From NCBI GenBank assembly GCA_025359915.1, contig JANYDE010000059.1:1-40282 (forward strand): a stretch of DNA of 40,282 bases. Direction: 5' to 3'. A model generated the notes under the pieces. That model did not search any database. It worked only from the letters and a program-made list of their open reading frames with translations, and was not told where the DNA came from. Positions 20,632-25,468 of this stretch are shown here, one piece after another (the first letter of the stretch is position 1; the number at the start of each line of letters is the position of its first letter). A program made the translations under genes and the position numbers. This DNA comes from Chamaesiphon sp. 336R_metabinner_41. GTDB lineage: Bacteria > Cyanobacteriota > Cyanobacteriia > Cyanobacteriales > Chamaesiphonaceae.

Positions 20632-20800
20632 AATTTGATTTGCCTAACCTCCGATTCCAGCTAATTTATCATTCTCGATCGAAAATTTGTAATCGACTGT
20701 TTCTCTTGCTCTATCGCTAGGGAATAATATATCTAACTAGTGGTTTAACGTAAGAGTTAGTACTTTTGGTGTGGAGTGTCACTTCTCACCCCAGAAATCA

Positions 20801-20835: not shown

Positions 20836-21399
20836 ATGATGAATATACAAGAAATCGTCGAACATGCTTTAGAAGAAGGCTATCTTACCCCTGCAATGGA
20901 ATCAGAGGTAGGGCGAATTTGTGACAGTGCGGCAGAGCTGTCAGTAGAAGAATATATGGCACTCGATCGTTTGATGGGGGCATTATTAGCTGGAGAAATA
21001 GTAACAGTTCCACGCAAACAATTTATCAATGTGATGGAAGAATTAGTAATTACTGAAACCATCAGTCGGATTACAGCAATCGAAGTTGATAGTGATATTC
21101 AATTAGATGTTGGCGATATTGCTGCTTATGCACTCAATCGTCTCCCACCTCTATATGCTACAACGGAAGAAGGTGCTAGCTACCAACGCGAACGCGCTCA
21201 AACAGAACTCCAAAGTTTGATTAACCAACAAGTTGAATCGGCAATTGCCCAAAATCTCAACCGTCCCGAATTCTTCCCAGAACGCCAAGCAATTGCCAAA
21301 CCCACTGGAGACGAAGTTGTCAAACAAGTTAGCACCTTATTGCAAGCCTATGCACCACAGTTTGAATCGAAACATCATCCTGTTGGTGCGGTAGATTAA
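20836..21399 (+). CDS. ComFB-domain protein
   Basis: A 187-residue soluble protein. Residues about 45-115 match the late-competence ComFB family: QFINVMEELVITETISRITAIEVDSDIQLDVGDIAAYALNRLPPLYATTEEGASYQ, with the conserved NVMEELV and AYALNRLPPLYxxxxxG. ComFB domains in cyanobacteria are now linked to c-di-nucleotide binding and motility or pilus control, although direct evidence here is absent. The N-terminal 40 residues are acidic and helical. I take ATG 20836 (followed at once by a second ATG) as the start instead of the GTG at 20776, because the extra 20 residues come from a heptamer array. It is 17 bp upstream of the zinc ribbon-methyltransferase fusion gene and probably cotranscribed. 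Confidence 0.85.
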   Translation: MMNIQEIVEHALEEGYLTPAMESEVGRICDSAAELSVEEYMALDRLMGALLAGEIVTVPRKQFINVMEELVITETISRITAIEVDSDIQLDVGDIAAYALNRLPPLYATTEEGASYQRERAQTELQSLINQQVESAIAQNLNRPEFFPERQAIAKPTGDEVVKQVSTLLQAYAPQFESKHHPVGAVD

Positions 21400-21416: not shown

Positions 21417-22208
21417 ATGAAATGTCCTAATTGTCAATCAACTAAGCTGCGAAAGCATGGTTTTTATCGTGACAAGCAACGGTACCAATGTAAAGATTGC
21501 GCCCGTCAATTTGTCGAAGATCACAATCAAAATTCGCATCAGCAAACTAGTACTGGAGTAGAAGATCGAATCGATAAATATATCACATCTATCTCTACTC
21601 CAGCTAGCGATTTACTGCTAAACTTACAACAAGCTACGGCAAAATACCCGCTCGCTCAAATGCAGCCCACGTTACCACAGGCGCAACTGATTGCCTTACT
21701 GATGAGATCGATGGGAGCTATTCGAGTATTAGAGTTGGGGATTTTTAGTGGCTATTCTACCTTGGCAATGGCTCTCGCATTACCGCCACAGGGACAAATC
21801 ATTAGTTGTGGCGTAGCCGGAAAACATTTAGACATCGCTCGTGACTATTGGCATCAAGCCGGAGTCGCCGATCTCATCGATCTTCAAGTTGGCAGTGGCT
21901 TAGAATTACTCGATCGATTATTAGCTGTCCATCCTCCGAGTTTTTTTGACCTAATTACGATCTCTGGACTCAAACATCAATATCCACTTTACTATCATCG
22001 GGCGATCGAGTTATTGCGTCCGCAAGGATTATTAATCTCGACTGATGTGCTCTGGCAAGGAAAAGTTTTAAATCCAGATACTTATCATGATGATTTCACC
22101 AAGGGAATCGATCTTTTCAATCGCGAGTTAGTTGCAGATCCACGAGTTGATGTATCAGTGTTACCGATTGGTGATGGGATTTCGATTGCGATTAAAACTG
22201 GTGAATAG
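21417..22208 (+). CDS. IS1-type zinc ribbon fused to a degenerate O-methyltransferase domain
   Basis: A 263-residue fusion. Residues 1-36 are a zinc ribbon of the kind found in IS1 InsA-type transposases: C3/C6 and C25/C28 with KLRKHGFYRDKQRYQCKDC. After a polar linker (37-55) comes a domain homologous along its whole length to the intact O-methyltransferase at 23534-24199 (LELGIFSGYSTLAMAL against LEVGVFTGYSSLTVAL; VLPIGDG against LIPIGDG). Catalytic positions are lost: the ribose-binding Asp92 of the intact protein is Gly132 here, metal ligands Asp143, Asp169 and Asn170 are Ser183, Thr209 and Asp210, and the DADK motif reads SGLK. It is probably a non-catalytic DNA- or nucleic-acid-binding protein that may still bind a nucleotide-like ligand. 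It lies 17 bp after the ComFB gene and 78 bp before the OppC permease gene. Confidence 0.85.
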   Translation: MKCPNCQSTKLRKHGFYRDKQRYQCKDCARQFVEDHNQNSHQQTSTGVEDRIDKYITSISTPASDLLLNLQQATAKYPLAQMQPTLPQAQLIALLMRSMGAIRVLELGIFSGYSTLAMALALPPQGQIISCGVAGKHLDIARDYWHQAGVADLIDLQVGSGLELLDRLLAVHPPSFFDLITISGLKHQYPLYYHRAIELLRPQGLLISTDVLWQGKVLNPDTYHDDFTKGIDLFNRELVADPRVDVSVLPIGDGISIAIKTGE

Positions 22209-23533: not shown

Positions 23534-24199
23534 TTATCTCTTTCGAGCGATCGTCAATCCGTCGCCAATTGGGATTAAACTAATCTGGACTCGAGCGTCA
23601 TGATAGATCTGCTGATTGATTTGTTTGATTGCTTGAGTACGTTTATCATTGTCCATCGACGGATCTGCAACTCTGCCATACCATAGGACATTATCAACGA
23701 GGATTAATCCACCCTGTCGCACTAACTGGAAACATCGATCGTAATAAGCCGCATAGTTATTTTTGTCTGCATCAATAAAAGCAAAATCAAATGTACTTGA
23801 TTCACTATTAGCTATTAATCGATCGAGTGTTTCCAATGCTGGCGCAATGTGCAAACTAATTTTATCACTCACGCCTGCTTCCTGCCAATATTTACGGGCG
23901 ATCGAGGTAAATTCATCGCTCACATCGCAAGCGATAATTTGACCATCATCTGGTAGATTTAATGCTACGGTCAGAGAACTATAGCCCGTAAATACGCCCA
24001 CTTCCAAGCATTTTCTAGCACCAATTAATTGAACCAGTAAGCCCATCAATTGTCCCTGCTCTGGTGAGATTTGCATATTCACCAATGGATGTTTCGCTGT
24101 TTCTGCTCGAAGTTTTGCTAAGATCTCCGGCTCTCTCACAGAGTTATCAAGTAGATATTGATAGAGAGGATCGCTTAAACCAATAGATTGATTCGACAT
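23534..24199 (-). CDS. Class I SAM-dependent O-methyltransferase
   Basis: A 221-residue member of the metal-dependent COMT/CCoAOMT-like family, methylating a catechol-type or related hydroxyl using S-adenosylmethionine. Motifs: SAM loop LEVGVFTGYSSLTVAL (65-80), acidic ribose contact Asp92 in IIACDVSDE, metal ligands in FIDADKNNY (Asp143) and LVDNVLWYG (Asp169, Asn170), and the C-terminal PIGDGLTIARK. Family length is about 220, so it is complete. Substrate unknown. It is the catalytically intact paralog of the zinc ribbon fusion protein 1.3 kb away on the other strand. Its ATG at 24199 is closely preceded by a degenerate heptamer array. Confidence 0.92.
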   Translation of the reverse strand: MSNQSIGLSDPLYQYLLDNSVREPEILAKLRAETAKHPLVNMQISPEQGQLMGLLVQLIGARKCLEVGVFTGYSSLTVALNLPDDGQIIACDVSDEFTSIARKYWQEAGVSDKISLHIAPALETLDRLIANSESSTFDFAFIDADKNNYAAYYDRCFQLVRQGGLILVDNVLWYGRVADPSMDNDKRTQAIKQINQQIYHDARVQISLIPIGDGLTIARKR

Positions 24200-24232: not shown

Positions 24233-24263
24233 TAGGCTCTTAGAATGAGAAATTTTAATAATT

Positions 24264-24333
24264 ATTACTTATTACTTATTACTTATTACTTATTACTTAT
24301 TACTTATTACTTATTACTTATTACTTATTACTT
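24264..24333. repeat. Ten perfect tandem copies of ATTACTT
   Basis: A 70-bp array of exactly ten identical 7-bp units, the longest perfect array together with that at 35514. Its right end overlaps the stop codon (24332-24334) of the pentapeptide-repeat gene on the minus strand. Confidence 0.95.
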
Positions 24334-25468
24334 AATTATTAGTAGGTGGCTCTGATTTTAATAGTTTATCGACTTCAGGATCGTAAATTGCTAACATCCA
24401 ATTTTGAGCCAGTTTGACTTGAATGATATCCAAATTCCTAGTCTTCCGTAAATCCGCCTTATTAAGATTAGCACCACAGAGATTTACTTGATATAGATCG
24501 GATCCACTGAGATCGGCTTTAGTCAGATTTGCTTTACTCAAAGTTGCGCCACGGAGATTTGCACCGATTAAGATGGCACCAGTGAGATTAGTATTACCCA
24601 AACTAGCATTAGTCAAGATGGCTCCATCAAGAATGGCATTACTTAAATTTGCCTTATTGAGATTAGCTTCATGTAAACTTGCCGAACTCAGATTCGTATT
24701 ACTCAAGTCAGCCTGAATTAGATTTGCTCGATCGAGTTGAACTTTGGTAAGATTAGCACTATTGAGATTAGCATGACTGAGATTAGTCAAGTTGAGACTA
24801 GCTCCACGTAAGTCGGCTTTGATTAAAGCGGAATTATTGAGTTTTGCTCGATCAAGATTTGCCCCGACGAGATTAGCCTCACACAAATTTGACAAACTCA
24901 GATCCAGATATTGACTATCACTTTCCAGATCTGTCTGGCGGCGATTAATTACTGTTAATGCCGCTTGAGAGTCAGTCCGAATTGTTGGTAATTGCGAGAT
25001 ATCTTGTCCTTTGATACTCTGCTTCCCGCGCACAAAAGAAGACAATACTTCCATAATCGTCCAGCCATCTCGCGGCGAATCATTGGCAATCCTTTCGAGA
25101 GCATAAATCCCGCCAATTCTAATTGTCTCTTCCTTATTACCCAATTGCTCGATCGATCTGGTAAATCGTTCAGTAATCAGTCGATTTTCGCCTTGGGAAA
25201 AATTGAGGAATAAAATCGAGCCACCAAAAATCGTAGCACTGGTACTCAGACTTGCAATAACCAGTCGAATTAACTCTAAAATAAAGTTGCGCCGACTGAG
25301 TTTTTCGGCTAACTTTAACTGATCGATCGCTGCTTGCCAATTAGCATCAGCATTAATATTACCACCGCCCTGTGCTTTCCACATCTCGTAGGCTTTCGCC
25401 CGAATAACTTCCGGTGCAATCGGATCTGGGATAATTAATGATTGCAAAAATTGAACGATCGTGATCAT
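24332..25468 (-). CDS. Pentapeptide-repeat membrane protein (first of two)
   Basis: A 378-residue protein. A hydrophobic helix pair lies at about 62-90 (ILELIRLVIASLSTSATIFGGSILFL). A conserved module follows that I know from many cyanobacterial pentapeptide proteins: RFTRSIEQLGN, RIGGIYALERIANDSPRDGWTIMEVLSSFVRG. From about residue 185 to 355 there are some 30 pentapeptides of the A(D/N)Lxx type (ANLVG-ANLDR-AKLNN and so on), forming a right-handed beta-helix. Function is unknown; some relatives contact membranes or DNA gyrase, but nothing here shows that. The stop codon lies in a heptamer array. It is related to the protein at 39436-40176. Confidence 0.88.
   Translation of the reverse strand: MITIVQFLQSLIIPDPIAPEVIRAKAYEMWKAQGGGNINADANWQAAIDQLKLAEKLSRRNFILELIRLVIASLSTSATIFGGSILFLNFSQGENRLITERFTRSIEQLGNKEETIRIGGIYALERIANDSPRDGWTIMEVLSSFVRGKQSIKGQDISQLPTIRTDSQAALTVINRRQTDLESDSQYLDLSLSNLCEANLVGANLDRAKLNNSALIKADLRGASLNLTNLSHANLNSANLTKVQLDRANLIQADLSNTNLSSASLHEANLNKANLSNAILDGAILTNASLGNTNLTGAILIGANLRGATLSKANLTKADLSGSDLYQVNLCGANLNKADLRKTRNLDIIQVKLAQNWMLAIYDPEVDKLLKSEPPTNN

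Follow-up and report, generated by a model that had tools for sequence, protein, structure and literature searches.

An IS1-type zinc ribbon joined to a putatively non-catalytic O-methyltransferase fold beside comFB/cdgR in the cyanobacterial genus Chamaesiphon

In Chamaesiphon, the gene immediately behind comFB/cdgR encodes a fusion of an N-terminal IS1-type zinc ribbon with a cation-dependent O-methyltransferase (OMT) domain whose metal and S-adenosylmethionine (SAM) positions have been replaced. Judged by its sequence, the product is neither a normal OMT, with the metal and SAM positions gone, nor a transposase, with neither a helix-turn-helix (HTH) nor a DDE domain. It is nevertheless no relic and is kept under purifying selection on both of its domains. 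The fusion was found in a stretch of 40,282 nucleotides from Chamaesiphon sp. 336R_metabinner_41 (contig JANYDE010000059.1), referred to here as the window, where an open reading frame of 263 codons runs on the forward strand from an ATG at 21417 to a stop codon ending at 22208, with start, end and length as given by a first-pass annotation made from the letters alone. The features discussed below are collected in Table 1.

Table 1. Domains of the fusion and neighbouring features, with positions counted from the first letter of the window
Feature	Residues	Position	Strand	Evidence
IS1/InsA-type zinc ribbon	1-36; C3, C6, C25, C28	21417..21524	+	NF050000, conservation, pN/pS, model
Flexible linker without helix-turn-helix	37-46	21525..21554	+	low pLDDT, no HTH family match
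O-methyltransferase fold, metal and SAM positions replaced (G132, S183, L185, T209, D210)	47-263	21555..22205	+	PF01596, model, residue table
comFB/cdgR cyclic-dinucleotide receptor gene, immediately 5' of the fusion, probably same operon		20836..21399	+	PF10719 4.5e-20, PDB 8HJA
TAACG-N4-CGTTA dyad in the comFB leader, weak candidate autoregulatory site		20746..20759	not assigned	leader alignment, mismatch counts
Intact cation-dependent O-methyltransferase (comparison)		23534..24199	-	PF01596 4.9e-77

The methyltransferase part is recognised by PF01596 over residues 59-260 (6.3e-52), and no gap is needed to align residues 45-260 with the intact OMT of the same window (92 of 216 positions identical, 43%), which bears out the end-to-end match described at first pass. 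A model of the whole protein (me2c3c97478b6) has 149 residues with a pLDDT of at least 90, covering most of the OMT fold, while ribbon and linker are modelled with low confidence (below 50 for residues 34-46). Among the nearest solved folds are two members of PF01596, SafC (5LOG; Z 30.2, 217 residues, 2.0 A) and SynOMT (3CBG; Z 28.6). SynOMT and SafC share the fold over fusion residues 45-263, with 44% and 41% identity in the structural alignments, as well as the catalytic lysine; the fusion differs from them by the ribbon added in front and by the replacement of D143, D169 and N170, assigned to the metal, and of D92 and D145, assigned to SAM.

The first-pass description of the N-terminus as an InsA-like zinc ribbon holds: its four cysteines are present and it passes the NCBIfam model NF050000, "IS1/IS1595 family N-terminal zinc-binding" (49.3 bits, 5.2e-13, cut-off 28), whereas the Pfam transposase ribbon models all stay under their cut-offs (InsA at 17.5 bits against 26.1). 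Cys3, Cys6, Cys25 and Cys28 are invariant in all seven full-length orthologues, as are 29 of the first 36 residues altogether. When this piece is modelled alone with its relatives, residues 1-30 take the form of a beta ribbon (pLDDT 88-93), and the linker behind it is poorly predicted (below 50 over residues 39-50). A structure search with the ribbon alone returned nothing below E 0.001, the best hits being a chain of an RNA polymerase III complex (E 0.08) and a decarboxylase subunit (0.24); its sequence matches classical zinc fingers in the PDB from 5.5e-5, with no single stretch passing on its own. The four-cysteine ribbon stands at the N-terminus as it does in IS1 InsA and the IS1 transposase (NF050000, PF03811), but unlike these the fusion carries no HTH and no DDE domain and occurs once per genome. 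No HTH or transposase catalytic family was matched in any of the seven orthologues at E 0.01, and the transpos_IS1 model reaches 41 bits (cut-off 100) over its first 43 positions only.

The loss of the active site is common to all orthologues. Eight fusions were aligned with 59 intact relatives, the latter being the best-scoring loci after removal of identical rows (94 to 74 segments). D143, D145, D169 and N170 are present in all 59 intact rows and D92 in 58, with a single Glu; in all eight fusions these five positions read S183 (six, with one Ala and one Tyr), L185, T209, D210 and G132, respectively. The roles of these residues in metal and SAM binding are those given in accounts of relatives (PMC6153501; PMC6543040), and equivalence to D143/D169/N170, D145 and K146 was inferred from the shared motif and constant spacing. 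In the crystal structure of one relative, as reported, two Asp and one Asn hold the metal and a Glu the ribose, and a further Asp contacts the adenine in some chains (PMC6543040). The SAM-loop glycine G72 is moreover a serine in five of the eight fusions. The catalytic lysine K146 is retained as K186 in all eight, and all seven full-length proteins have the motif-I residue Glu106. The first-pass annotation had called all catalytic acids changed, and the four replacements it listed (D92 to G132, D143 to S183, D169 to T209, N170 to D210) are correct, but it went too far in that K186 and Glu106 are kept, and the replacement of D145 by L185 was absent from its list. Homologues of the fusion with intact residues at these sites, which would have spoken against a shared loss, were not among the eight orthologues. 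From this residue pattern, the fusion is very unlikely to catalyse a metal-dependent reaction and unlikely to bind SAM in the normal way, and SAM is an unlikely ligand because the metal and SAM contacts are gone; since Lys186 and Glu106 remain, the protein may still carry out some chemistry or bind a ligand. In one of the copies (L005:1501-2310, on the same contig as L060) eight residues are inserted in the loop after LLD without a frameshift.

Selection was gauged on the seven full-length genes. Constraint is strongest in the ribbon, with a pN/pS of 0.086 (bootstrap 0.025-0.165). It is weaker in the methyltransferase domain, whose value of 0.262 (0.219-0.309) is about double that of the intact paralogue in the same genomes (0.131; ComFB 0.110). 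Purifying selection hence acts on both domains, although conservation is not uniform over the two, as it had been proposed to check. Median dS is 1.35, and because synonymous divergence is this high the dN/dS values are rough. None of the seven copies holds a stop or a frameshift, whereas a neutral simulation that assumes 0.675 changes per site per lineage gave a mean of 10.8 stops per copy and at least one in each of 2000 runs. The frameshifts or neutral ratios that would mark a dying gene were therefore not found, and there is good support for the earlier proposal that the gene has been kept to serve a new role: its genus-wide presence, its uninterrupted frames in seven copies, purifying selection and losses common to all eight orthologues. 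With its catalytic residues lost and its sequence under purifying selection, the fusion qualifies as a pseudo-enzyme as far as sequence can tell. Of 22 columns that are conserved in the enzyme but not kept in the fusion, 12 have become fixed for a new residue, as compared with 38 of the 130 columns that vary canonically (Fisher p 0.027); with seven close relatives, this does no more than hint at a remodelled site.

The full-length fusion is present in seven of nine Chamaesiphon genomes. The eighth (G150) has fusion residues 66-261 at a contig end; the ninth (G107) shows no fusion, and the locus is there unassembled, as its contig stops 151 bases after the M23 peptidase gene, which in the other genomes stands before comFB. 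Both genomes of the sister genus are without the fusion and have a different, convergent gene behind comFB. In the order sample, eight of 388 genomes match at 1e-65, all of them Chamaesiphon, one of 149 genera, and no fusion was found outside the genus in the phylum sample (386 genomes, E 1e-40) or the order samples (148 and 388 genomes). Two matches in the phylum sample (G300, G258) reach residues 7-8 only by way of stop codons, N-terminal extensions of comparable size (L091, L094, L012, L015, L030) are not ribbons, and none of 66 non-fusion OMT-type frames has a CxxC...CxxC pattern ahead of the domain. A ribbon scan of 84,980 species, queried with two ribbon peptides only so that versions with another ribbon would be missed, returned 12 loci; five are full-length fusions, whose source is Chamaesiphon or an uncultured cyanobacterium (L057), and at least part of these five lie on the same contigs as in the genus genomes. 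The search of the architecture across cyanobacteria suggested at first pass shows a fusion conserved in the genus and not confined to one genome.

As to its origin, the fusions form one group in trees (100/100; 99/97 in another tree), and the stem leading to them is long (1.64) in the 99/97 tree, which is disturbed by a long Bacillaceae row. A sister relation between the fusion and the Chamaesiphon OMT is neither supported nor rejected by the tree (AU p 0.48). Each of the 11 family genomes has a single intact OMT at 1e-60, and genera that lack the fusion have the intact OMT too. Linkage of the two (1.3 kb apart) is seen only in the source genome; in G090, assembled in three contigs, 3.95 Mb separates the intact gene (4.72 Mb) from the fusion (0.77 Mb), and six draft genomes have them on different contigs, which is compatible with any distance. 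Tandem duplication was considered as the origin and rejected on the distance in G090 and the separate contigs in the six drafts. Probably, the fusion originated a single time, in a common ancestor of the Chamaesiphon sampled, and came to adjoin comFB/cdgR. A run of TTATTAC-type repeats (about 24261-24335) lies between the intact OMT and a pentapeptide-repeat gene.

The ribbon resembles IS1-like proteins of other cyanobacteria, with 61% identity over 36 residues to a protein of Myxosarcina (L064) assigned as IS1-like by eye. Within the genus, the nearest ribbons compared are those of TetR-like fusions (at most 19 of 36 positions identical), followed by a 72-residue frame (L121; 18), another frame (L133; 17) and IS1-like copies (15), and none of the ribbons compared there can be named as donor. 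The TetR-like proteins, of about 300 residues with a C-terminal IS1-type ribbon and an HTH-like tail (L003 at G000:C98, L124, L125, L126, L128, L131, L132, L134), are found in several Chamaesiphon genomes and constitute a second recruitment of an IS1-type part, here with its HTH, TetR and HTH being named by eye. They place an IS1-type piece on a non-transposase protein in the same genomes as the fusion, but whereas theirs is C-terminal with an HTH-like tail, the ribbon of the fusion is N-terminal and without HTH. The sister-genus genome G054 also has a match of similar length. In G090, six equal matches to the IS1 ribbon model (49.5 bits; for example L139, L141, L144, L146) were recorded, of which the four compared are alike, and the six are probably copies of a mobile IS1-like element.

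The neighbour immediately upstream of the fusion is comFB. Its product matches the c-di-GMP receptor CdgR (PDB 8HJA) over residues 2-181 (1.2e-55), and the gene gives one match in each of nine of the 11 family genomes and none in G107 and G150, whose contigs are broken at this place. The gene had been described at first pass as sitting directly behind comFB, and its ATG does follow the comFB stop by 17 nt in the source genome and by 17-18 nt in six of the seven genomes, with 50 nt in the seventh (G138). In G138 (L007/L059), ComFB ends at an early stop, at 175 instead of 185-186 residues and so about 11 residues shorter, which widens the gap to 50 nt. Downstream, by contrast, at least four kinds of gene occur among the seven genomes covered on that side, to which G090 does not belong: an ABC permease in the source genome, one protein of 479-514 residues on the same strand (L056, L058, L059), one of 202-204 residues on the opposite strand (L057, L035) and one of 416 residues, also on the opposite strand (L060). 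Within a single genus, such adjacency may be nothing more than synteny, and one downstream gene is likewise common to three of these seven and another to two.

CdgR/ComFB is described as a widespread cyclic-dinucleotide receptor, and the Synechocystis ComFB as a dimer that binds both c-di-AMP and c-di-GMP and without which piliation and competence are not normal (PMC12313861). In Anabaena, CdgR is reported to control cell size partly through the CRP-family transcription factor DevH, with other downstream factors being likely (PMC13075795). The source genome has only two GGDEF domains at 1e-10 (G000:C127:2316-2801 and C60:4399-4893), with which c-di-GMP can probably be made.

The first-pass annotation named the ComFB gene but did not recognise its product as a cyclic-dinucleotide receptor; a CdgR/ComFB-type neighbour allows a more specific hypothesis than that of a general regulator. 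The reading we favour, tentatively and at somewhat less than an even chance, is that the fusion is a genus-specific, non-catalytic OMT-fold partner of the CdgR/ComFB pathway whose ribbon touches nucleic acid or transcription proteins. The proposed protein would be a pseudo-enzyme of the OMT fold with an IS1-type zinc ribbon at its N-terminus, produced from one transcript with comFB and dimerising through the OMT fold as its relatives do; the target of the ribbon would be nucleic acid or a protein of transcription, and the former active site, now remodelled, may serve as a docking face or as a pocket for a ligand. Binding of c-di-GMP or c-di-AMP to CdgR/ComFB would control the fusion, much as CdgR acts on the unrelated DevH in Anabaena, and by analogy with the work on ComFB/CdgR the likely outputs would be pili, DNA uptake and cell size. 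The parallel to CdgR and DevH lies in a CdgR-type receptor with a putative regulatory partner, while the difference is that DevH is of the CRP family and the partner proposed here a presumably dead OMT with a ribbon. Direct DNA binding is doubtful, since InsA is reported to require both zinc finger and helix-turn-helix for site-specific binding (PMC12428005) and the fusion is without the latter; the bare ribbon may make a protein contact instead. The DNA-binding regulator suggested at first pass is plausible in its general sense, but the ribbon stands alone in seven of seven orthologues where InsA needs both parts.

Among other explanations, the one that survives best would still need no CdgR contact: an unlikely alternative is a self-contained DNA-binding regulator, in which the OMT dimer senses a small molecule in the remodelled pocket and its two ribbons bind a dyad such as that of the comFB leader. 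It would account for the ribbon being the most constrained part and for several fusion-specific fixed residues at or beside the replaced cofactor positions. The comFB leader contains a conserved block (20725-20770) with an imperfect TAACG-N4-CGTTA dyad, which among seven Chamaesiphon leaders has no mismatch in three, one in two, including the one here, and 3-4 in two, whereas the best match in the two sister-genus leaders, which precede no fusion, has at least four. Against such a regulator stand the missing HTH, the lost SAM contacts and the broken dyad in two of the seven leaders; moreover, a search for a regulon by the dyad pattern gave 13 matches in five genomes, four of which are the comFB leaders themselves, against 38 for the reversed control (3 against 1 in G138 taken alone). 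For an RNA hairpin in the leader, z values of -0.24 to -0.55 in three leaders were not significant. The dyad is thus a weak candidate for an operator, as seen from the leader sequences.

Less probable again is a regulatory pseudo-subunit, where the dead OMT would pair in the manner of a prozyme with the intact OMT, or with another enzyme, and tune it, the ribbon being a protein-protein contact. The common fold with 43% identity, the presence of the intact OMT in all 11 family genomes and the dimerisation helix reported for a plant relative (PMC6153501) are in keeping with it, but G090 carries the two genes at distant places and six drafts have them on separate contigs, the intact OMT is found in genera without the fusion, and it is comFB to which the fusion is tightly linked. 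An enzyme with altered, metal-independent chemistry, acting for instance on RNA and guided by the ribbon, is improbable: the kept catalytic Lys and motif-I Gly/Glu would allow for it, as would the tRNA methyltransferase TrmR in the same fold family (5ZW4; Z 24.1), yet D92 and D145, the equivalents of the ribose and adenine contacts as reported for relatives (PMC6543040; PMC6153501), are replaced in all eight fusions, position 183 varies between Ser, Ala and Tyr, and five of eight have Ser in place of the SAM-loop Gly72. That a decaying, functionless gene was captured by a transposon fragment is hardly credible, since despite a pN/pS in the methyltransferase domain twice that of the intact paralogue and a long stem branch, the ratios of 0.26 and 0.09 and seven copies free of stops and frameshifts, against about 11 stops per copy under neutrality, speak for a maintained protein.

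Pseudo-enzymes that act as regulators and transposase pieces recruited to other proteins are known kinds. A fusion of a ribbon with a dead OMT, or its link to a cyclic-dinucleotide receptor, is not described in the literature searched, that is, in titles and abstract openings among the matches listed, with subscription journals and preprints mostly outside. Returning to a partner of the CdgR/ComFB pathway, the bolder form of this reading is rather unlikely in our estimate: the fusion would represent a new kind of second-messenger output, a regulator of transcription or RNA built from a transposase ribbon and a dead OMT dimer, controlled by CdgR/ComFB, in which the emptied cofactor site is reused as a face for binding the receptor or a ligand.

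DevH accounts for only part of the way in which CdgR/ComFB passes on its signal (PMC13075795), most of which is still to be explained, and the fusion, tightly linked to the receptor gene across the genus, offers a tangible candidate for a partner acting downstream. If this were true, it would be a clear example of how a fragment of a transposon and a disused enzyme can be assembled into a bacterial regulator, and the intact enzyme encoded by the same genome would serve as a control.
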